From a virus: a stretch of 32,821 nt of DNA. The notes beneath the pieces are model-generated. The model did no database searches, had not been told where the DNA came from, and saw nothing but the letters and a program-made list of their open reading frames with translations. Positions within the stretch are counted from its first letter, which is position 1. Each line of letters opens with the position of its first letter. Of the stretch, positions 5,161 to 32,295 are shown piece by piece. Position numbers and translations under genes: made by a program. The stretch is taken from positions 1 through 32,821 of IMG/VR virus record IMGVR_UViG_3300044798_000178; one strand, given 5' to 3'.

Positions 5161-5190
5161 AACAAAAGTGTTATGCTTGGAGGTAGTAGA

Positions 5191-5772
5191 ATGATGTCGG
5201 TATCAGTATATTTGGCGGGAGCCATCAGAAGCGAAGAGGTTGGACGCAATTACGATGCGGCATGGCGAGAACATGCTAAAAATTGTATACTGAAAGCTAT
5301 TCCGGACGAGGACATACGCATCATAAGTCCGATGGCGTTTAAGTCGTTTGATGGGGAGGTGTGGAAGATTTTTGACATGTTCCCCATAGATGATCAGGCC
5401 ACACTGCAACAGGATATGACATGCATTGCGCAGTCTGACATGTTGCTTATGAACTTATTGCCGTTCGAGGAAAGATATTCTGTAAGGTTTGATGTGGCAG
5501 AAGTATTATCTATTCCTTTCGGGGAAGGCTGTCACCCTAATGTGGGAACATTTTCTGAGTTTGGTATAGCATTAGCAACACGAAAGCCTGTGGTTGTTGT
5601 TAGCAACGATGCGTATATCAAATCACACCCGTTTATGCGGGCGGGGGCCATAAAAATAGTTTCCACGGTAGATGAAGGCATAGATTATATTATTGGCCTT
5701 GTATCAGTGCTTTTGTCAAAGCCTGAAATTCATAAGGCACACGCAAGACGGCGGAGGCAAGGTAATGAATGA
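5191..5772 (+). CDS. Nucleoside 2-deoxyribosyltransferase-like protein
   Basis: 193 residues. N-terminal VYLAGAI (6-12), a central IAQSDMLLMNLLP (79-91) with D83, and GTFSEFGIALATRKPVVVV (119-137) with E123 match the nucleoside 2-deoxyribosyltransferase/DUF4406-like fold; E123 is the expected nucleophile position. Relatives swap bases between deoxynucleosides or hydrolyse the N-glycosidic bond; in phages they accompany nucleotide salvage or base modification. ATG 5191 is chosen over ATG 5173 because GGAGG (5180-5184) lies between them at ideal spacing. The 3' end overlaps the Gam-like gene by 8 bases. Substrate unknown. Confidence 0.72.
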   Translation: MMSVSVYLAGAIRSEEVGRNYDAAWREHAKNCILKAIPDEDIRIISPMAFKSFDGEVWKIFDMFPIDDQATLQQDMTCIAQSDMLLMNLLPFEERYSVRFDVAEVLSIPFGEGCHPNVGTFSEFGIALATRKPVVVVSNDAYIKSHPFMRAGAIKIVSTVDEGIDYIIGLVSVLLSKPEIHKAHARRRRQGNE

Positions 5773-16367: not shown

Positions 16368-16382
16368 GACGCAGTGTTATAC

Positions 16383-16418
16383 ACCCCAGCGGGGAATGGA
16401 TTCCTGCTGGGGTCTTTG
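16383..16418 (+). terminator. Probable intrinsic terminator after the ssDNA-binding gene
   Basis: ACCCCAGC (16383-16390) pairs with GCTGGGGT (16406-16413); GGAAT and ATTCC extend the stem inside. The tail TCTTTGTT is only moderately T-rich. It would isolate the promoter-driven ssDNA-binding gene from the polymerase genes. Confidence 0.7.
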
Positions 16419-16436
16419 TTAAGCAGAAAGAAACTT

Positions 16437-16859
16437 ATGGCACAGACCCCAGAGGAAAGAAAAGCTGCACACCGTGAATCTAGTCGTAGATACCGGGAAT
16501 CTCACCGTCAGCAATCCAATGAAGTAAGTCAAAAATGGAATGAGGCACATAAGGAGCGTAAACTTGAGACAAATCGTAAATGGCGTGAGAATCATCGTGA
16601 GCAGGAGCGCGTCAGAAATCGTGAATACTACAGGGCTAACCAAGCGCAGCTTAAAGCCAAACTTTTAGCAAAGCAGGGTAGTGTATGTGCAATTTGTGGA
16701 GGTAACCGAGGGAAAAATGCACTAGACCTAGATCATAACCATACTACGGGAAAGATACGGGGTTTGCTATGCAGGCCATGTAATCTAGGACTTGGACACT
16801 TTGCGGACACCCCTGAATGGTTGCGCAAGGCAGCCGACTACATAGAGAGTGCGGAATAA
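16437..16859 (+). CDS. Endonuclease VII-like HNH endonuclease (copy 1)
   Basis: 140 residues. The C-terminal half is a recombination endonuclease VII-type His-Me finger: CAIC (C84, C87), LDHNH (D99-H102) and LLCRPCN (C112, C115, N116), closing EWLRKAADYIES. The first 70 residues are basic repeats of the type RxYRExHRxQ, likely a DNA-binding coiled arm. T4 endo VII cuts branched DNA, but many such phage genes are mobile, homing-like nucleases. ATG 16437 is chosen because the frame upstream runs into the terminator hairpin. It lies between a terminator and the polymerase gene, three bases from the latter's ATG. A second copy occurs at 28422 with a nearly identical nuclease core. Confidence 0.85.
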   Translation: MAQTPEERKAAHRESSRRYRESHRQQSNEVSQKWNEAHKERKLETNRKWRENHREQERVRNREYYRANQAQLKAKLLAKQGSVCAICGGNRGKNALDLDHNHTTGKIRGLLCRPCNLGLGHFADTPEWLRKAADYIESAE

Positions 16860-16862
16860 TTT

Positions 16863-19433
16863 ATGCGGAACCCCCAATGTAATCTTTGTAGATTTGGTAT
16901 CGACTGCGCCAAACCGCCTAAGAATCCGTGTTTGCTGCCCTCTGTAGAGGATATGACGCAGTGTGATGTGGTATTGGTAGTTGAACAGCCAACAATGCAG
17001 GACGATACCTACGGTAGCATTTACGTTGGTAAGGGTTTGGCAGAAATAAGAAAGTTTTTTGAGGACAGGGGTTTAAGTGTCTATTGCACGTATGCACTCA
17101 AATGTCCTAGACCGGCAAAGGACGTAAAGCCTGATGCAAAAGACATCAAAATTTGTGCCTCAGAATATTTGGCTAACGAATTGGTTAAAATCCGACCGAA
17201 GCATATTATTACCTTTGGTAGCAATGCTCATTATGGTGTGTGCCGTAAAAAGTGTTCGGCTGAGAAGGTGGGTAGTCGATATTTTGATGAACAGATACAA
17301 GCGTACATATATCCGACTAATCATCAAGCTCAGGGTCTTTATAATAAACAAGTCAAGGACGCGATATGGCTGCATATGCAGCAGTTTGTGGACTGGATTA
17401 ACGCTGGGGATACAGATGTGGGATTCAACCCACCAGTATATGTGGCGGATACCATCAAGTCGCTTAGAAGCCTACAGAAACGAATCAATGCTGCCGGAGG
17501 ACTTGTTGCTGTCGATACTGAAACCCAGGGTCTCAATGCTTATGCACCGGATAAAAATGTCCGCAGTATACAATTTTGTTTTGACCCCGATTTTGGCGGC
17601 GTATTCGTGCCTCTTGCGCTTGAAGATGACTGTTACTACACAAATAAAGAGCAAATTCATCATTTCTGGGAAAAGGAATCTTTGGGAGACGCCATTGAAA
17701 TTATTCAAGAGATTCTAAACGAAAGCGCCTGTATATGGCACAATGGTAAGTTTGATCGTATCTGGCTGCATGAGTGGGGAAATAGAATGTTTGGAAAACC
17801 TATTTTAGCCCCAAACATTTACATGGATACATTGCACGCCGCGCACATACTGGACGAAACCAGATCACTTAAACTAAAGTCTCTTATTACCTCAGACCTT
17901 GGCTATCCCACGTATGGTATTGAGGACAAGGTGACAAAAGATTTGGATGCCTTAATACCGTATGCAGCCAAAGATGCCGTGGCTACCCTACTTTTGGCAC
18001 AGAAGTACGCAAAGACGTTAAAAACGGAGGATATGAACAAACTTCGTAAGCTCTATACCAAGGTTATCCGACCAATGGACTCCATATTTACGGAGATGGA
18101 GCTTACAGGATGGCCGGTGGATTTGGATGCGTGTCTTGAGTTACACGAATTAGTTATTGCGGAGTTTGAGCTGGTAACTACTGAACTACACGCTATTTTG
18201 GAAGAGGCCAGCATAGAAACTACCCCCACCACATTTGGTAGCCCGAAACAACTTGCCAAGATAATTTTTGGCAATCTAGGTTACCCAATGAATCCGGATA
18301 AACGAGTATCAAGGACAAAAACCGGAGCTATAGCTACAGGAAGTGACGCCCTGTTACATCTAAAGGGAAAACCTTTCATCGACAAGTTGTTGGAATGGCG
18401 CGGACTTTCCAAGATGCTATCAACATACATTAGACCGATGATAGTGGCGGCAGAAACCCGAGGAAGAATAACTACGTCATACAAATTGACCGGCACAGTG
18501 ACGGGTCGTACGGCATCTGGTAAAGAGAAAGAGGGAGGATCGTCGTCGAAGGGCAACGGGAACGCCATGAATTTACAAAATCTTCCCTATACAGAGTACG
18601 GGCCGAAGAAGTTAAGTGTAAGAAAATGTATACGAGCCGCTGAGGGTTGGAGTATTCTGGAGGTAGATGAGAGTCAAGTTGAACTTCGTATAGCTGGGGA
18701 ACTTTCCAAAGACCCCCTGCTGCTTAAAACCTACCAAGAGGGCGGAGATTTGCATACGGTAAGAGCCATGAGAATGATGGGCCTTACGCCGGAGGAATGG
18801 AAACTGCTTTCTCCGGAGGTAAGGGAAGAAAAACGTAAAAAAGCTAAGCCAGCAAATTTTGGACTAATTTATGGAATGGAAGCTCCGAGGTATAAAGCGT
18901 ACGCTTTAATGGAATACGGAGTCGATGTTTCTATGGCGGAAGCCAGCAAAACCCGAACACAGTTTTTCTCAGATCATGGGGGTCTCGAACCTTGGTATCA
19001 TAAACAGGAGCGAGAGGCCATGCGTAAAGGTTATGTTGAGAGCCTGTCTGGACGCAAAAGACATTTGCCCAACGTAAACCTTGATCCAGATTCTAGCAGA
19101 GAGGCAAGAGCAAAACAGTCTGAGGCTGTGCGATACGCTATCAATGCCCCAGTTCAAAGTTTTGCCTCGGATTTGAAACTCATGTCTCTGATCGAAATAC
19201 ATGAATGGCTCAAACCCGAAGATGGTTATATCTTTGGTGAAATCCACGACAGTATTGTTTTAGCGGTGCGCAATGAGGCTTTAGAAGATGTAGCCCGAAA
19301 GGTAGTCGAGATTATGAGACATCCTAGACTGCTCGATGAGTTAGGTATTTGTTTAACTGTTCCACTTGACGCGGAGGCCAAAGCTGGTCCGTCCCTTGGA
19401 GAGGTAAAGGAGCTAAGTTATGCCATACATTAA
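16863..19433 (+). CDS. Family A DNA polymerase with N-terminal uracil-DNA-glycosylase-like domain
   Basis: 856 residues. Residues 1-180 resemble family 4 uracil-DNA glycosylases: CxxC at C6/C9 plus C81 and C98, the four positions that hold a 4Fe-4S cluster, motif VVEQPTMQDD (39-48) in place of GEAPG..ED, and YPTNHQAQ (150-157) near the HP motif position. A 3'-5' exonuclease follows (D218, E220; N294, D298; D371). The polymerase has motif A LEVDESQVELR (599-609), motif B with R658, K662 and F666 in NFGLIYG, and motif C IHDS (794-797). There is no 5' nuclease domain. Replicative enzyme of the phage; the fused domain may check for uracil in template DNA. The tail overlaps the next gene by 14 bases. 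Confidence 0.9.
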   Translation: MRNPQCNLCRFGIDCAKPPKNPCLLPSVEDMTQCDVVLVVEQPTMQDDTYGSIYVGKGLAEIRKFFEDRGLSVYCTYALKCPRPAKDVKPDAKDIKICASEYLANELVKIRPKHIITFGSNAHYGVCRKKCSAEKVGSRYFDEQIQAYIYPTNHQAQGLYNKQVKDAIWLHMQQFVDWINAGDTDVGFNPPVYVADTIKSLRSLQKRINAAGGLVAVDTETQGLNAYAPDKNVRSIQFCFDPDFGGVFVPLALEDDCYYTNKEQIHHFWEKESLGDAIEIIQEILNESACIWHNGKFDRIWLHEWGNRMFGKPILAPNIYMDTLHAAHILDETRSLKLKSLITSDLGYPTYGIEDKVTKDLDALIPYAAKDAVATLLLAQKYAKTLKTEDMNKLRKLYTKVIRPMDSIFTEMELTGWPVDLDACLELHELVIAEFELVTTELHAILEEASIETTPTTFGSPKQLAKIIFGNLGYPMNPDKRVSRTKTGAIATGSDALLHLKGKPFIDKLLEWRGLSKMLSTYIRPMIVAAETRGRITTSYKLTGTVTGRTASGKEKEGGSSSKGNGNAMNLQNLPYTEYGPKKLSVRKCIRAAEGWSILEVDESQVELRIAGELSKDPLLLKTYQEGGDLHTVRAMRMMGLTPEEWKLLSPEVREEKRKKAKPANFGLIYGMEAPRYKAYALMEYGVDVSMAEASKTRTQFFSDHGGLEPWYHKQEREAMRKGYVESLSGRKRHLPNVNLDPDSSREARAKQSEAVRYAINAPVQSFASDLKLMSLIEIHEWLKPEDGYIFGEIHDSIVLAVRNEALEDVARKVVEIMRHPRLLDELGICLTVPLDAEAKAGPSLGEVKELSYAIH

Positions 19434-20817: not shown

Positions 20818-21414
20818 ATGTCACTGATAGTTGGTATAGCAGGAAAGAAACGATCAGGCAAAGACACTGTAGCCAAAATGATGTCGGATTTGGCGCAAGA
20901 GCTCGGTATAACAGCAGAAAGACGAGCTATGGCTGATGCACTCAAAGAAGAGTGCGCTACAATGATAACAAATGAAAGTCTTAGGTGCTCTGGAAAAGAA
21001 ATCGAACCGTTAGACATTGTAAAGAAAATGAATACGGATGATGCCAAGGAGGATTATCGTCTCTTGCTTCAATGGTGGGGAACTGAGTTTAAGCGGGGGA
21101 TGGTAAGAGATGATTATTGGACAAAATGCATGAAGGGGTGGATCAAGGAACACAAAACCTCTGAGATCATACTTATCCCCGACGTTCGATTCCCAAACGA
21201 GGTTGAGATGATAAAAGAACTGGGGGGTATGGTAGTTCTAGTTATTCGCCCCAGCGTAGACGTAACAGACGAGCACGTATCGGAAAGGGCCTTAGACAGT
21301 TTTAAGGGCTGGGACGGGGTAATTGTGAATGATTCGAGCCTTGAGGAACTAAGAGGGCAGATTTTCCGAGATTTTACAGATTTGCTTACTTGGGCAGGAA
21401 TGGCAACAAAATAA
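20818..21414 (+). CDS. Deoxynucleoside monophosphate kinase
   Basis: 198 residues. P-loop GKKRSGKDT (9-17) is near the N-terminus, then a lid-like region with QWWGTEFKRGMVRDDYW (approximately 83-99), and IPDVRFPNEVEMIKELGG (approximately 120-137), all typical of T4 gp1-type dNMP kinases. These phosphorylate dNMPs (in T4 also hydroxymethyl-dCMP) to feed phage DNA synthesis. The GGAG ribosome site lies about ten bases upstream. The stop codon TAA overlaps the next ATG (TAATG). It suits the polymerase operon context. Confidence 0.82.
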   Translation: MSLIVGIAGKKRSGKDTVAKMMSDLAQELGITAERRAMADALKEECATMITNESLRCSGKEIEPLDIVKKMNTDDAKEDYRLLLQWWGTEFKRGMVRDDYWTKCMKGWIKEHKTSEIILIPDVRFPNEVEMIKELGGMVVLVIRPSVDVTDEHVSERALDSFKGWDGVIVNDSSLEELRGQIFRDFTDLLTWAGMATK

Positions 21415-21842
21415 TGAGGCACGTCATTTTGCCGGTCTTAGCTCGTATTTCTTGCAGAAACAAAGTCCTGGCCGAACATCTACAAATTGGAGACCAAGTT
21501 CAAGCCTATGACTATCGTAGTAGCAAACTAATGATGACTACTATTATAGCCGTCAATCCGGTTGATCCAGTTCAAAAGATTTTAACTCCAATAAATGGTT
21601 GGAGAATTGTGGCGCTTGCCAATGAAACTGTAGCGTTGAGTCCACAGGGGGAATGTACGTTATCAGATAAACCGAGACAATTCATTGGTTTCTGCCAGAA
21701 AAATCCGATAAAGTTGTTGCTTCGAGGGGTCGGACCTTGTTTGGAGTACAATGAAGAGTGGGCGGCAGTAGAATTGATATGGGACGGGCCTCAGTACATT
21801 TGGGCCGAGGGCATACTGGTGGGCAATGCAAAACTTGATTGA
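21414..21842 (+). CDS. Hint/intein-like small protein, possibly degenerate
   Basis: 142 residues from the ATG in the TAATG overlap. The protein looks like a stand-alone Hint domain: C14, then LQIGDQVQAYD (23-33, like intein block A), a beta-rich middle, ELIWDGPQYIWAEG and a C-terminal ILVGN (134-138) resembling the intein end ILVHN. The block B TxxH is not visible (ANET instead), and the penultimate His is Gly, so splicing is unlikely. It may be an intein relic, an autocleaving domain or an unrelated beta protein. It overlaps the terminase start by 17 bases, and the terminase itself carries a full intein. Confidence 0.45.
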   Translation: MRHVILPVLARISCRNKVLAEHLQIGDQVQAYDYRSSKLMMTTIIAVNPVDPVQKILTPINGWRIVALANETVALSPQGECTLSDKPRQFIGFCQKNPIKLLLRGVGPCLEYNEEWAAVELIWDGPQYIWAEGILVGNAKLD

Positions 21843-24588
21843 TCAGCTTGTTAACCTGTGTATAACAAACCCAGCCAAGGGTGAAAAGTTGGCACGTGAT
21901 TATGGGGTATGGGACGCCGTTCATGCTGCCATTCTTCATCCCGCAAGGTTGATGCTCTGTCGGATAGACCCGAATCATTTCATTGAGTACGCATTCGTAG
22001 ACCCAGAAACCCGCAAACCTGTAGAACAACAGACATTTCATAAAGAATGGCAACAGCTTATCACGGATAATGATCGGATCATGATCATCGCCCCGCGTGG
22101 ACATGCGAAGTGCGTGATAAAAGGTACAAAGATATCGTTAAGAGATGGCAGTCGAATATGTGTAGAAGATATACCCCCCGGAAAAAGATTTGATTGTTTA
22201 TCCTGGTGCTCAGATTCCGGGTATTCTATACATCGAGCTAACGTTTGGCAAAACACCGTGCAACCCTGCTATCGTATTACTACTAAATCAGGTAGAACTA
22301 CAGGATACTCTGAAGACCACCCGTGTTGGACTGGAAATGGTTGGGTGGCAGCAAAGAATTTAATTTCTGGCGACACCTTTGCCGTTGCCAGAAATATACC
22401 GGGTGGGCACATTAAGTATTCTTTGGATCGTGCGTGGCTATTAGGATTACTTATAGGAGATGGGTGCTTAACCGTACCTAGTAATGTTAAACTAACATGT
22501 GCCGATACCCGTATACTTAAAAATATACCAGAACATGTGGCAAACTGTGGGTTTTCTTACAGACAAACGGGTAAAAAAGGTATTACTTTTGCCTATAATA
22601 TAACAGGGGGGGCCGTTCAATGGATCAGAGATTTCGGCCTCGATGGAAAATCATCACATACAAAATTTATACCCTCAGAGGTATTTACATGGAATAATGA
22701 ATCGGTTGGAGAATTTATACGTGGGTATTTTGAAGCTGATGGCTGTGTAACCCCAAAGGAGATAGCGTTTAGTTCAGTTAACTCTAAACTATTACTAGAT
22801 ACGCAGAGTCTTTTGTTGCGGTTTGGGGTTGTTTCCTCTTTACGTATTAAGAGGGCAACCTATAAAAATCAACCCTATAAATCATATATATTAGTAATAA
22901 ATGGAAGCTCCATGAAAACTTTTGCTTTCATTATTGGTGACAGGTCTGACAAGGGATGTAGACTACAAAATACGGTGGAATCACTGGGCCAATCTAACGA
23001 TAACATAGACCTTATACCTGAATCGGTGTTAACGCGGTTGAGAGTAAAAAGAGGTTGTGGATCGGATAAACTAGACGGATGTGATATTTCAAATCGTAGA
23101 AAACGCGGATGTCTTAGACGTAAAGTACAAACTCTTGCCTGCAAACAGAATCGGCAAGATTTATATAACGAGTCTGATTTATTTTGGGATGAGATAGTAT
23201 CTGTCGAATTTATTGGAGAACAACAAACCTATTCTATTGAGGTGGATAATACCCACGTTCATATTACAGATGATTTTATAACACACAACTCCTATCAGAC
23301 TATAGGTCGGGTAGTTTGGGAGCTGGGCCACAACACCGACTTAAGGATTAAAATCATAGGTTCGTCCGACGATAAAGCCAAAGAAATTTTAGGGCTGATT
23401 AAAGACACCATCAACAGTTCAAAAGTCCAAGAGGTATTTCCTAATCTGCAGATTGATTCAGATCGGGGGGACACCAAAGGTGCTTTCTTTCTAAAGAGAC
23501 ACATTTTACAGAGAGACCCTTCAGTGGAAGCCTCTGGTGTGCTATCCACGGGCGCTGGAGGTAGAGCCGACATCCTTATCTGTGACGATGTTGTTGACCT
23601 CAAAAACTCTGTAATCAATCCGGCTATGAGAGACCAAGTTACCAACACTATCAAGGAAACATGGTTCTCATTGGTTGCAGCTACAGGCAAGATTATATGG
23701 GTGGCCACTCCGTATCATGTGGCTGACGCCACACATAACATAAAAGAGACCGGAGTTTTCAAAGTTTGGTTACAACCGGCCATCACATATGAACCTCATT
23801 TTGATGACAATGGCGACCCCATTATCGATCTCAAAACCAATCAGCAAAAAATCACCAAAAAGATACTATGGCCTGATAAATGGCCGGAGAAAAAGTTAGA
23901 GGAACGAAGAAAAGACGTGGGGGAGCGGGTTTTTGCTCGTCAGTACTTGTTAACCGCCATGTCCGACGAGGAAAGAACATTCCCTGAGTACGCGCTAGAG
24001 AAGAGTTTTGATTTTACCTTGGCAGACATTGGAGAAGATATTGATGACGATTGGACTACATTCGGGGGGATCGACCTTGCATCAGCTTTGGGGAAGAAAA
24101 ATGCCTGGACGGTTATTTTTACGCTGGCAAAAAACCCACATACAAATAGACTACACATCAAAGAGATTTTCAGGCGTCGTATGAAATTCCCAGAGATAAT
24201 GAAAGCGGCCATAGAACAATATCGCAAACATGATTGGCGATTATGTTATGTAGAAAATAACCAATTTCAACAGGCTGTCATTGACGCCTTGGAAGCTGCG
24301 GATAAGACAATGCCGGTAGAATCATTTACTACCGGAGTAAATAAGGCCAACGAAAAGGTTGGGTTGCCTGCTATGTCAGTGGACTTTGAAAAGAATAGAT
24401 TTGCTGTTCCCGCTGCGAAGTTTCCATTGAATCCTGATGATCCTTCGACCTTGGCCGTATTTATGAACGAATTAAGAACTCATCCTGGGGGAGAGTTTAG
24501 TGATACGATTATGGCGTGTTGGTTTGCATGGTCGGCGGCAAAAAAGGGTCAAGGTGACTTTGAGGATGCTTACATGGCTTCCGTGTAA
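21826..24588 (+). CDS. Terminase large subunit precursor with intein in Walker A
   Basis: 920 residues as translated; 527 after removal of residues 96-488. The ATPase Walker A is split: APRGHAK (89-95) joins S489 after splicing to give RGHAKS. Walker B is ILICDD (583-588), with an IWVATP coupling motif (624-629) behind. The nuclease domain starts FGGIDLA (746-752, D750), continues with LCYVENN, and has SDTIMA near the end, as in RNase H-like terminase nucleases. It pumps phage DNA into proheads and cuts concatemers. Unspliced protein would have a broken P-loop, so packaging depends on splicing. It lies directly upstream of the portal's own promoter, standard head-gene order. No small terminase is recognised next to it. 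Confidence 0.92.
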   Translation: MQNLIDQLVNLCITNPAKGEKLARDYGVWDAVHAAILHPARLMLCRIDPNHFIEYAFVDPETRKPVEQQTFHKEWQQLITDNDRIMIIAPRGHAKCVIKGTKISLRDGSRICVEDIPPGKRFDCLSWCSDSGYSIHRANVWQNTVQPCYRITTKSGRTTGYSEDHPCWTGNGWVAAKNLISGDTFAVARNIPGGHIKYSLDRAWLLGLLIGDGCLTVPSNVKLTCADTRILKNIPEHVANCGFSYRQTGKKGITFAYNITGGAVQWIRDFGLDGKSSHTKFIPSEVFTWNNESVGEFIRGYFEADGCVTPKEIAFSSVNSKLLLDTQSLLLRFGVVSSLRIKRATYKNQPYKSYILVINGSSMKTFAFIIGDRSDKGCRLQNTVESLGQSNDNIDLIPESVLTRLRVKRGCGSDKLDGCDISNRRKRGCLRRKVQTLACKQNRQDLYNESDLFWDEIVSVEFIGEQQTYSIEVDNTHVHITDDFITHNSYQTIGRVVWELGHNTDLRIKIIGSSDDKAKEILGLIKDTINSSKVQEVFPNLQIDSDRGDTKGAFFLKRHILQRDPSVEASGVLSTGAGGRADILICDDVVDLKNSVINPAMRDQVTNTIKETWFSLVAATGKIIWVATPYHVADATHNIKETGVFKVWLQPAITYEPHFDDNGDPIIDLKTNQQKITKKILWPDKWPEKKLEERRKDVGERVFARQYLLTAMSDEERTFPEYALEKSFDFTLADIGEDIDDDWTTFGGIDLASALGKKNAWTVIFTLAKNPHTNRLHIKEIFRRRMKFPEIMKAAIEQYRKHDWRLCYVENNQFQQAVIDALEAADKTMPVESFTTGVNKANEKVGLPAMSVDFEKNRFAVPAAKFPLNPDDPSTLAVFMNELRTHPGGEFSDTIMACWFAWSAAKKGQGDFEDAYMASV
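22111..23289 (+). mobile_element. LAGLIDADG homing-endonuclease intein in the terminase ATP-binding loop
   Basis: 393 residues from Cys96 to Asn488 of the terminase ORF. Splicing features: N-terminal Cys; block B with SEDH (162-165) in place of TxxH; C-terminal FITHN and +1 Ser. Two LAGLIDADG helices, WLLGLLIGDGCL (204-215) and FIRGYFEADGCV (297-308), have both catalytic Asp residues (D212 and D305), suggesting an active homing endonuclease. The insertion is exactly between K95 and S489 of the P-loop. The coding sequence looks more A+T-rich than the flanking exteins by eye (not computed), consistent with recent arrival. Confidence 0.92.
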
Positions 24589-28421: not shown

Positions 28422-28967
28422 GTGGCACGAACAGAAGAAGAAAAGAAAATCGCAGACCGAGAAAAACGAAACAAGTGGAAAAATTCTCACCTGGAACAAG
28501 ACCGCGAATATAAACGTAAATCTCGAAAACTGCACCCCGAACCTAGCCGTAAATCAGCCAATAAATACTACTGGGATCATCGTGATGAGATTCGTGAGGC
28601 GAGACGAAAACACCGCGAAGAGCATATAGAACAATATCGTGAAAGGGACAATAAGTATCGTAAGGATCATCCGGAAGAAACGCGAGAATCTAGGCGCAAA
28701 TATAGGGAAGCGCACCCCGGATTGAATCGTATACGACAGTATGGAATGACTTTAGGAGAACATGAGCAGCGTTTAATAGAACAAAATGGAGTTTGTGCAA
28801 TTTGTGGGGGAAATCGAAGTAAACAGGTATTATGTATAGATCACGATCACCAGACTAATAATGTTCGGGGTCTATTGTGTAGAAAGTGTAATACCATGCT
28901 CGGTATGGCAGAAGACAATACCGAATGGCTTAGAAAAGCTGCTGATTACTTAGAATCCCATATCTAA
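28422..28967 (+). CDS. Endonuclease VII-like HNH endonuclease (copy 2)
   Basis: 181 residues from GTG 28422, three bases after the phosphoesterase stop; no ATG is available nearby. The nuclease core repeats copy 1 (16437): VCAICGGNR (C125, C128), IDHDH (D140-H143), RGLLCRKCN (C153, C156, N157) and EWLRKAADYLES. The N-terminal 100 residues are basic helical repeats of the type KYRxxHPExxRESRRKYRE, longer than in copy 1. Copies share nucleotide-level similarity over the core, so they are probably duplicates or independent arrivals of one mobile family. Followed by the terminator at 28986. Reading as a mobile endonuclease is inference. Confidence 0.85.
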   Translation: MARTEEEKKIADREKRNKWKNSHLEQDREYKRKSRKLHPEPSRKSANKYYWDHRDEIREARRKHREEHIEQYRERDNKYRKDHPEETRESRRKYREAHPGLNRIRQYGMTLGEHEQRLIEQNGVCAICGGNRSKQVLCIDHDHQTNNVRGLLCRKCNTMLGMAEDNTEWLRKAADYLESHI

Positions 28968-29124: not shown

Positions 29125-32100
29125 ATGATTCTAGCCCGACCGAAGGCCAGACTTTTGGTGACTCAGGTTGCCAAGCGCAAAGACGTGTCACCAAAGGAAG
29201 GCGAAAAAAAGTATGGGGAGGTAAAGTTTGCTGATTCGGTAAACAAGAAATACCCCCTAGATACCGAGGCGCATGTTAGAGCGGCGTGGTCATACATCAA
29301 TATGCCAAAAAATGCCGCTAAATACTCTGCCAGCGATTTGAAAACCATAAAGGGACGAATCAAGGCAGCTATGGGGCGTCATAGTATTAAGATTTCTGAC
29401 GGGGAGAAGCAAGCCTATGAAGCGTTGAACTATAGTACCGATCTTCCTGTTACCCAGGATCACTATCACATAGAGGGATCGATTGAAGAGCACCTATCCA
29501 AGATTTGTGCCGCTTTCTGTAATTGGAAGAAAGAACACCAACCTGAATTCGACAGTCGTTGTGGTGAGTATTACTGGGCAGCGATTCTCGGGGTACTTGA
29601 CGAGAGTATCATATTCTACGTAGACAACTACTCCAAGGGAATCGAGTATTACGAGGTTGGTTACACTACCGATACAAACGGAGAGGTGGCCATATCCGGC
29701 GACGTTGAGGAATGTGATGTTAAGTTGGTTATGACTAAACTAGACATTTCTGAAGAGGACGCCGAAGACAAAGAGGAGCAAAACGCAATGGCACAGAAAC
29801 AAGACAAAGTAGCTGATGGGAACGTCATCGCTGCTGCGGCTGCCGCTCCGGTTCCTGCTGGTTTCGGAGTCCCCGTGGTCACCGAAACAGGCAAGGGCAC
29901 TGAAGCCAATTCTGCCGGGTCTAGTGTAGAGGATATTAGTGACGCCAGCGTTACTAAACCTGTCACATTCTCAGATGAAAATGGCGCGAGCGCCGCCGCT
30001 GCCGATGGCAGCGAAGAAACGGACGTTGAAGAGGAGTTGGCAAAGACCAAGGCCGGTTACAAGGGTATGGACCCAGGTAAAGACGGAACTCCTAAAGAAT
30101 TCCCGGAAAAGCAGACCATCGAAGTTCCTGGAATCGCTGATATTAAGGATGATGCCCCGGTAGTGTATCCCACTCGTCAGTCTGTTCAAGGTATGCCCTA
30201 TGACCTTGGCGGGATGAGCATGTGTCATATTCAGTCCGTCAAGAAAAGTGCAGACGGTAAGACAATGACCATTCAGGGAATTGCCACCCGAGGTGACATA
30301 GTTAATCAGAGTGGTCAGGTTTATCCACTTTCCGTATGGGAAGCTAACTTGGCCAAGATGAATGAGCTGGCGTCTCAGGGTAAGTTCCTTGGAAAGCTGG
30401 AACATCCCGTTCAGGATCAAGGACTTGTTGACACCGCTATCAAGTGGGATAAATTCTGGCTGCAGGGCGCTGACCTGTGGTTTGATGCAACTGTCGTTCC
30501 TACCGAGCCTCATGGCAAAAATCTTCAGGCTTTGCTCGAAGCCAAGGTTCAGGTTGACATGAGCACTCGTGGATATGGGACTTTCAAAGTTCAAGATTGG
30601 CGGGGAGTCGAGCGACCCGTTATGCAGGATGACTTTATCTGCACTGCAATTGATGCGGTGTGGCAGGGAGCATCCACTGGCTCTGGCGTAAAAGCCGTCA
30701 GTTACCAGAGTACCCTAAAAGAAGGAGAAACAGTTACCGTGGACAAGATTCAAACAAAAGCTGCTGAGATCAGAGCTAAGGCCGAGATCAAACAAACCAG
30801 GGATGCTCTGCTCGCTGACGCCGGACTGAATGACATCGGTATGAAGGCTTACGCACAGGCATTGAATTCCGCCGCTACTATTGAAGACCTCATTGAAAAG
30901 TGTGAGGTTCTTCTGCCGAGTCTGCAGGCCGTCTTCGGCGCAAAGACCGAGGAAGTCACGCAGTCTAGCACTTATCAGCCTACGTTCTTCGTTAAGGCGA
31001 CTCAGGAAGAGTCCGCCCCGCAGAATGTTGGCGAGTTGCTTGACAGACTGTGCGCTGATCTTCCAGATCATTATCCGGGCCAGACCGCCATAAACACACA
31101 TATCCCTAATCATTTCCGGAGCCCCCGAGAGGCTTGCAAGCGGGTAATGATTAACGTGGCCCGCGAACAGCAGGGATCATTTAGTGGCAGAGACGCCGCG
31201 CTAGGTCTTCTCGCGCTTGAGCAGGGCAAGATTGATCGCGCCGCCGACATTCTCACTCAGAGTATTGACGCTACTGGTGGAACCACTGCCGACGGAAACG
31301 CGATGCCAGGTGGTGCTCCTTTGAGCAACTACCTGATCTTCCCGTTAATCCGCAGGGTGTATCCTCAGTACATCATGAACGAGATCGCCAGCATTCAGCC
31401 GATGGATAGGCCGGAAGGAAAAATCTTCTTCCTGGATCACTATCGAGCGAGTGATTCTCCCGCGACTCTCAGAGTTGACCTGAATACTTCGGCCAATCCG
31501 TTCAACAGTTCCTATTCGGACAACGCGACTGAAGGCGCTGCGGCTAATTACATTCGACTCAAATTGTCGAGTCAGACCATCACCGCCCACACTAAGAAAC
31601 TGGGAGCTGACTGGAGCATCGAAGAGATGCAGGACCTCCGAGCTTATCATGGTTTGGACGCTGCGCAGGAGCTTCTTGGCGGCATCGCCCGTGAGATGGC
31701 TCTTGAATGGAACAAGGAAGTTCTGGATGATATGCTTGCGCAGGCGACGGCTTCGGCTCGAACCTTCGGACAAGTCATGCCCGCCAGTTTCAGCACCACT
31801 CAGAAGGACTGGGACGAGTATATTTGGGTATACATCCAGGCCCTCGATAACGACATCTTTAGCAAGAGGAATGGCCCTATGACTCACATCATCGCTGGTG
31901 TGGACGCGGCCCTTGCTCTGGCGAAGTCTATGAGAGGCACATTCACCATCGGCGGTCCCGAGGGGAATGCCTCTGAACTTGAGATGTATCCGGGAACCTC
32001 GTTCTTCGGGACCCTTCGGACTCCGAACGGGAGTGCCTACAAGGTATTCAAGACCAACTTCTGGGGCACGGGAACTACTAATGGTAGCAAAATCCTTGGT

Positions 32101-32295
32101 CTCCGGAGAGGTTCAGAGTGGTCGGACACCCCGTATATCTTCGCCCCCTACACGGATTATGTCACTCCTATGCTCACCGATCCGGCTGACTTCAGCCAGA
32201 AGCAGGGTATCATTTCCAGGGCAGCCAAGAAGGTTGTTGTCCCCGACGCTATCGGTTATCTAACCGTATCTGCCGGACAGGGCGTAGTTCTCTAG
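29125..32295 (+). CDS. Prohead protease-scaffold-major capsid polyprotein
   Basis: 1056 residues in one open frame. Residues 40-85 resemble a DUF6582/ChaB-type domain seen in phage protease ORFs (YPLDTEAHVRAAWSYIN). Residues 100-210 are unassigned; 230-345 are low-complexity Ala/acid linker. Residues 365-520 form an S80/T4 gp21-like prohead protease, with H427 in GKLEHP and S480 in DMSTRGYG as likely catalytic residues. Residues 540-680 are helical, scaffold-like. From about 735 (FPLIRRVYPQYIMNEIASI) to the end the sequence is T4 gp23-like capsid, including WSIEEMQDLRAYHG (830-843). In T4 these are three genes (21, 22, 23). Self-cleavage would release capsid; the sites are not identified. It has its own promoter, 5' hairpin and terminator. 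GTGAGG before the ATG is a modest ribosome site. Confidence 0.88.
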   Translation: MILARPKARLLVTQVAKRKDVSPKEGEKKYGEVKFADSVNKKYPLDTEAHVRAAWSYINMPKNAAKYSASDLKTIKGRIKAAMGRHSIKISDGEKQAYEALNYSTDLPVTQDHYHIEGSIEEHLSKICAAFCNWKKEHQPEFDSRCGEYYWAAILGVLDESIIFYVDNYSKGIEYYEVGYTTDTNGEVAISGDVEECDVKLVMTKLDISEEDAEDKEEQNAMAQKQDKVADGNVIAAAAAAPVPAGFGVPVVTETGKGTEANSAGSSVEDISDASVTKPVTFSDENGASAAAADGSEETDVEEELAKTKAGYKGMDPGKDGTPKEFPEKQTIEVPGIADIKDDAPVVYPTRQSVQGMPYDLGGMSMCHIQSVKKSADGKTMTIQGIATRGDIVNQSGQVYPLSVWEANLAKMNELASQGKFLGKLEHPVQDQGLVDTAIKWDKFWLQGADLWFDATVVPTEPHGKNLQALLEAKVQVDMSTRGYGTFKVQDWRGVERPVMQDDFICTAIDAVWQGASTGSGVKAVSYQSTLKEGETVTVDKIQTKAAEIRAKAEIKQTRDALLADAGLNDIGMKAYAQALNSAATIEDLIEKCEVLLPSLQAVFGAKTEEVTQSSTYQPTFFVKATQEESAPQNVGELLDRLCADLPDHYPGQTAINTHIPNHFRSPREACKRVMINVAREQQGSFSGRDAALGLLALEQGKIDRAADILTQSIDATGGTTADGNAMPGGAPLSNYLIFPLIRRVYPQYIMNEIASIQPMDRPEGKIFFLDHYRASDSPATLRVDLNTSANPFNSSYSDNATEGAAANYIRLKLSSQTITAHTKKLGADWSIEEMQDLRAYHGLDAAQELLGGIAREMALEWNKEVLDDMLAQATASARTFGQVMPASFSTTQKDWDEYIWVYIQALDNDIFSKRNGPMTHIIAGVDAALALAKSMRGTFTIGGPEGNASELEMYPGTSFFGTLRTPNGSAYKVFKTNFWGTGTTNGSKILGLRRGSEWSDTPYIFAPYTDYVTPMLTDPADFSQKQGIISRAAKKVVVPDAIGYLTVSAGQGVVL

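Follow-up and report, generated by a model that had tools for sequence, protein, structure and literature searches.

A UDG-derived domain with an altered but conserved pocket on the family A DNA polymerase of a bacterial virus

The window, that is, the whole 32,821-nt stretch analysed here (IMGVR_UViG_3300044798_000178, from a virus of bacteria), encodes a family A DNA polymerase that combines a domain of the uracil-DNA-glycosylase (UDG) superfamily, a 3'-5' exonuclease and the polymerase in one chain. The reading we favour, with modest rather than strong confidence, is that of a replicative polymerase whose UDG-derived accessory domain does not excise uracil and would instead aid template grip or processivity. 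The original prediction implied that the fusion itself was novel, which is contradicted by a published description (PMC7412058), a solved structure (9QHS) and its wide occurrence in phages. What is new is a variant of this known fusion with a fixed, distinctive pocket. The features concerned are the following, with residue equivalences taken from an alignment to Thermus thermophilus (Tth) UDG.

16863..19433, + strand: UDG-like domain, 3'-5' exonuclease and family A DNA polymerase (856 aa; full-length AlphaFold2 model, pLDDT 91.5, pTM 0.90)
16863..17408, + strand: UDG-superfamily domain, residues 1-182 (PF03167 above cut-off; model pLDDT 91.2; Foldseek top matches 1ui1/1ui0)
16878..16889, + strand: Cys6 and Cys9 (CxxC), the first two of the four cysteines (kept in L113, L015 and L016)
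16983..17006, + strand: motif 1, Glu41-Asp48, EQPTMQDD (Glu41, Gln42, Gln46, Asp47 and Asp48 invariant in the 4 clade members)
17091..17093, + strand: Tyr77, replacing the uracil-binding Asn (Tth N80, UdgX N91; Tth alignment; Tyr in 4/4 clade members)
17103..17105, + strand: Cys81, Tth C84 column (Tth alignment; invariant in the 55-sequence alignment A4)
17154..17156, + strand: Cys98, Tth C100 column (Tth alignment; invariant in alignment A4)
17322..17324, + strand: His154 of motif 2, Tth H155, with the next Pro replaced (Tth alignment; His in 4/4 clade members)
17448..18020, + strand: 3'-5' exonuclease domain (PF01612, 1.6e-16)
18204..19397, + strand: family A polymerase domain (PF00476, 1.2e-70)

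Pfam, phmmer and Foldseek agree on the UDG-like domain that the original prediction had placed on this polymerase. The Pfam UDG profile (PF03167, cut-off 24.3) matches residues 33-166, scoring 32.9 bits in the whole protein and 37 bits when the N-domain is taken alone, and is followed by DNA_pol_A_exo1 at residues 196-386 and DNA_pol_A at 448-845. With the N-domain as sole query, phmmer retrieved T. thermophilus UDG at 6.5e-8 and the phage polymerase structure 9QHS at 2.9e-6; the UDG match is far beyond chance. AlphaFold2, run on the N-domain with 54 relatives, gave a confident model (pTM 0.89), for which Foldseek against the PDB returned the T. thermophilus family 4 UDG as best match (1.3e-11; TM to 1ui0 of 0.78/0.76), followed by the family 4 UDGs of T. 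maritima and Sulfolobus, then UdgX and then 9QHS. By both profile and alpha/beta UDG fold, residues 1-182 belong to the UDG superfamily. The relatives' N-terminal domain is not something else either, as 55/55 domains of alignment A4 match Pfam UDG. In the full-length model the polymerase part is Klenow-like, and the pTM of the whole chain suggests that the UDG-like domain has a fixed placement.

Judging from sequence and model, this N-terminal domain is descended from a family 4-type UDG. It shares with that family (UDGa, T. thermophilus 1UI0) the fold, the four-cysteine layout, the Glu, the acidic pair and the His, and differs in its Tyr for the uracil-binding Asn, its broken HP motif and its fusion to a polymerase. 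The four cysteines (C6, C9, C81, C98), the motif 1 reading VEQPTMQDD and the motif 2 region PTNHQAQ are all as originally described. Against the family 4 signature, motif A reads VEQPT instead of GE(A/G)PG, the Asn of the TN strand is Tyr77, and motif B reads HQ instead of HP, with the His retained and the Pro gone. The family 4 model TIGR00758 scores the window domain at 58.2, below its cut-off of 125.3; the relatives L002 and L020, both with a canonical triad, score above it. The four cysteines suggest that a 4Fe-4S cluster probably stabilises the domain. UdgX identity, hinted at by the Gln that follows the motif 1 Glu in both (EQP), was rejected: TIGR03914 gives 28.3 against a cut-off of 189.95, no KRRIH R-loop with its cross-linking His was found between C81 and C98, and the window, unlike UdgX, lacks the TN.

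Compared with Tth UDG, the window protein keeps Glu41, an acid at position 47 (Asp), Asp48, the Lys preceding the third Cys and the His of motif 2, and the motif 1 alignment places Tyr54 as the aromatic where family members stack on uracil. The changes comprise Gly40 to Val, Gly42 to Gln, Gly44 to Thr, Asn80 to Tyr77, Asn89 to Asp87 and Pro156 to Gln155. Tyr77 and Asp87 were absent from the original prediction, and Tyr77 is the most telling of the changes: it sits where the TN(I/A)VKC strand has the Asn that hydrogen-bonds uracil. The corresponding Asn of UdgX forms bidentate bonds with uracil, and both N91A and H178A abolish activity, although N91A still folds (PMC10776899). According to PMC10359453, Q53 dampens uracil excision. 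Taking the alignment together with the published mutants, the domain of the window's clade probably no longer removes uracil, since its uracil-reading residue is now a bulky Tyr. The earlier preference for binding over classic excision is therefore still favoured, mainly through Tyr77 and the retention of the domain in triad-less lineages; the motifs on which it had been based are weaker evidence, since none of Glu41, the acidic pair, the aromatic and His154 has been lost.

The altered positions are shared by close relatives. The window lies in a deep clade of its own on the polymerase tree, together with L113, L015 and L016 (domain identity to the window 41-69%). Identity to the window is 69% for L015, 69% over the domain for L113 and 53% for L016-L019, which form one lineage. 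The clade has a signature of its own, with the start MRN..C.LC, then EQ..xQDD, TYA.KC and NHx or DHx, which means that the pocket is altered but conserved. Between the window and L015, the UDG-like domain has a dN of 0.24, compared with 0.19 for the exonuclease and 0.25 for the polymerase (dS is saturated, and dN is given without dN/dS). The closeness of the first value to that of the polymerase domain argues that the UDG-like domain is constrained and not drifting. A bacterial or prophage origin was considered and rejected, as a scan of genome contigs gave no relative.

A wider survey assembled 77 near-full-length polymerases from viral contigs and annotated phages, with the whole polymerase and a full-length alignment as queries; a UDG-only alignment was too heterogeneous to scan the collection, and a single-protein UDG query against it returned no relatives. 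An N-terminal UDG-profile match was found in 77/77, although weakly in about 12 (31-68 bits). The triad E41/N80/H155 is complete in 30 of the 77, lacks one residue in 8 and lacks two or three in 39, column assignment being less certain in degenerate relatives. The strict four-cysteine set occurs in 60/77, some of the remainder being truncated contigs, and it is retained in 27 of the 39 relatives that have lost two or three triad residues. Seven members (L053, L059, L062, L063, L065, L068 and L092) have a weak UDG-like N-domain in which the cysteines and most catalytic residues are lost. A tree of the polymerase portion requires at least 11 changes of the complete triad and at least 8 of the cysteine set. 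Since the domain is kept through at least 11 triad changes, uracil excision cannot be the sole reason for its retention. Domain identity lies below polymerase identity by 5 points in canonical pairs and by 17 points in non-canonical pairs; the larger gap fits a relaxed yet continuing constraint, although harder alignment may widen it. A single polymerase family thus spans canonical members (L002, L020), members with an altered pocket (the window) and triad-less members (an actinophage lineage).

Similar domains occur well beyond this set. The UDG-like profile also matches the SPO1-like polymerase (1.4e-44), phiLo, Bacillus phage BSTP5 and an Edwardsiella phage (1.2e-15), and structure comparison with viral models places a UDG-like domain on many phage polymerases. 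A T5-like polymerase (L110 1491-3968) matches the C-terminal half of the domain only (1.2e-12), a possible remnant. In PaBG-group ('Lupandier') jumbo phages, gp205 has the same domain order as the window's polymerase (UDG, 3'-5' exonuclease, polymerase), and uracil repair was proposed for the domain (PMC7412058). That protein belongs to a distant lineage, its authors assume uracil excision, and the Tyr at the uracil-binding position belongs to the window's clade. The Thermus phage phiLo polymerase (9QHS, titled 'phiLo family-A DNA polymerase with modified template') is matched by both sequence and fold in its N-terminal UDG-like domain; it differs in its length of about 1,175 aa, its extra insertions and its intact GEAPG, TN and HP motifs. 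The SPO1-like polymerase (Goe2, L109) shares the N-terminal UDG-like domain but lacks the four-cysteine set, reads QENP, TSIVKY and IHPN at the motifs, and has its reading frame split by an HNH gene. The link between UDGs and the SPO1 polymerase is an old one, since some family 4-type proteins of the PDB still bear the name 'Phage SPO1 DNA polymerase-related protein'; papers on the phiLo structure or the SPO1 domain were not found in the open-access literature covered. The current assumption for the fusion is uracil repair, and the present survey argues that excision is not the whole explanation.

The genomic neighbourhood links the fusion with the pyrimidine metabolism of phages through its close pairing with an upstream dCMP deaminase. 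A deaminase (PF00383) is present in 42 of 50 fusion-polymerase records, and in 38/38 records where Pfam locates both, it lies 99-736 bp upstream of the UDG domain and on the same strand. These deaminase-upstream records include L002-L010 and the viral contigs L020-L098, and the deaminase is often flanked on its far side by a thymidylate synthase-like gene; a thymidylate synthase-like match occurs in 33/50 fusion records. Among control phages whose family A polymerase lacks the UDG-like domain, 2/11 have the deaminase (Fisher p 6e-5), a value that is indicative only because there are just 11 controls and neither set is phylogenetically independent. Neither deaminase nor thymidylate synthase was matched in the window fragment or in its longer relatives L016/L019, which are incomplete contigs. 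The same two longer relatives are the only records with a trimeric dUTPase (PF00692, 2/50). As they represent one lineage of incomplete contigs, this deaminase/dUTPase contrast is one suggestive case and no trend. A link between the fusion and the absence of any dUTPase was weakened by matches to PF08761 (dUTPase_2/MazG-like) in 17/50 records, which mean that other dUTP-cleansing enzymes may be present. In literature that was partially covered, neither the upstream-deaminase pairing nor the recurrent loss of the triad within a single polymerase tree was found. The window itself has nucleoside 2-deoxyribosyltransferase-like and deoxynucleoside monophosphate kinase genes (5173-5772 and 20818-21414), with possible nucleotide-pool functions.

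Under the favoured explanation, the UDG-like domain would survive as a folded accessory module that packs against the polymerase, with the Fe-S cluster probably adding stability. There it may contact DNA or a replisome partner and so improve template grip or processivity. Loss of the chemistry with retention of the domain points to such a role beyond excision. An analogue is the poxvirus holoenzyme, in which E4 is crucial in associating the template with the enzyme (PMC10115419). As described there, the poxvirus UDG (D4/E4) likewise serves as a polymerase accessory, but it is a separate protein joined via A20/A22 to a family B polymerase; in the window, the module would sit on one chain with an unrelated polymerase. 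What counts against the accessory explanation is that Glu41, the acidic pair, the stacking aromatic and His154 are kept and conserved beyond the needs of a purely structural role. The same residues lend some weight to a tentative alternative, to which we give clearly less credence, namely a retuned pocket that still flips out and recognises a base (uracil, or a deaminated or modified one) and responds either by excising it or by a stall signal to the polymerase. The conservation of Glu41, Asp47-Asp48 and His154 alongside a distinctive new signature is expected of a specialised and not of a decaying pocket, a structure of the phiLo polymerase contains a modified template, and dCMP deaminase and thymidylate synthase-like genes are usual in fusion-bearing phages; against this, no such modification genes were found in the window fragment or the two longer relatives. 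Archaeal family B polymerases possess a read-ahead pocket. We regard it as unlikely, though worth stating, that the altered conserved pocket acts as a reader that binds a uracil-like or modified template base without excising it and restrains or steers the polymerase; if true, the domain would be the family A counterpart of the archaeal pocket, derived from a retired glycosylase.

Ordinary family 4-type excision, cleaning the template near the fork, would fit the canonical triad of about 30 relatives, the tested pair of which (L002 and L020) passes the family 4 cut-off, and the persistence of the key acidic and histidine residues in the window. For the window itself such activity is improbable, given the Tyr in place of the uracil-binding Asn, the Asp at N89, the missing Pro of HP, the TIGR00758 score less than half of its cut-off and the dUTPase seen in the window's clade. 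Least credible of all is an inert leftover on its way out: other lineages, in which the domain evolves faster than the polymerase, have repeatedly lost the chemistry, and the half-domain match of the T5-like polymerase would suit such decay, but the constraint within the clade equals that of the polymerase domain, motif positions are invariant, the fold is confidently predicted and none of the 77 near-full-length relatives has dropped the domain.

Other genes in the window include a terminase large subunit split by an intein that carries a LAGLIDADG domain (21826-24588) and a 1056-aa ORF that matches both a head maturation protease and a major head protein, a protease-capsid fusion (29125-32295). 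In addition, two endonuclease VII-like genes, whose N-terminal parts are charged and repetitive, are located at 16374-16859 and 28422-28967.
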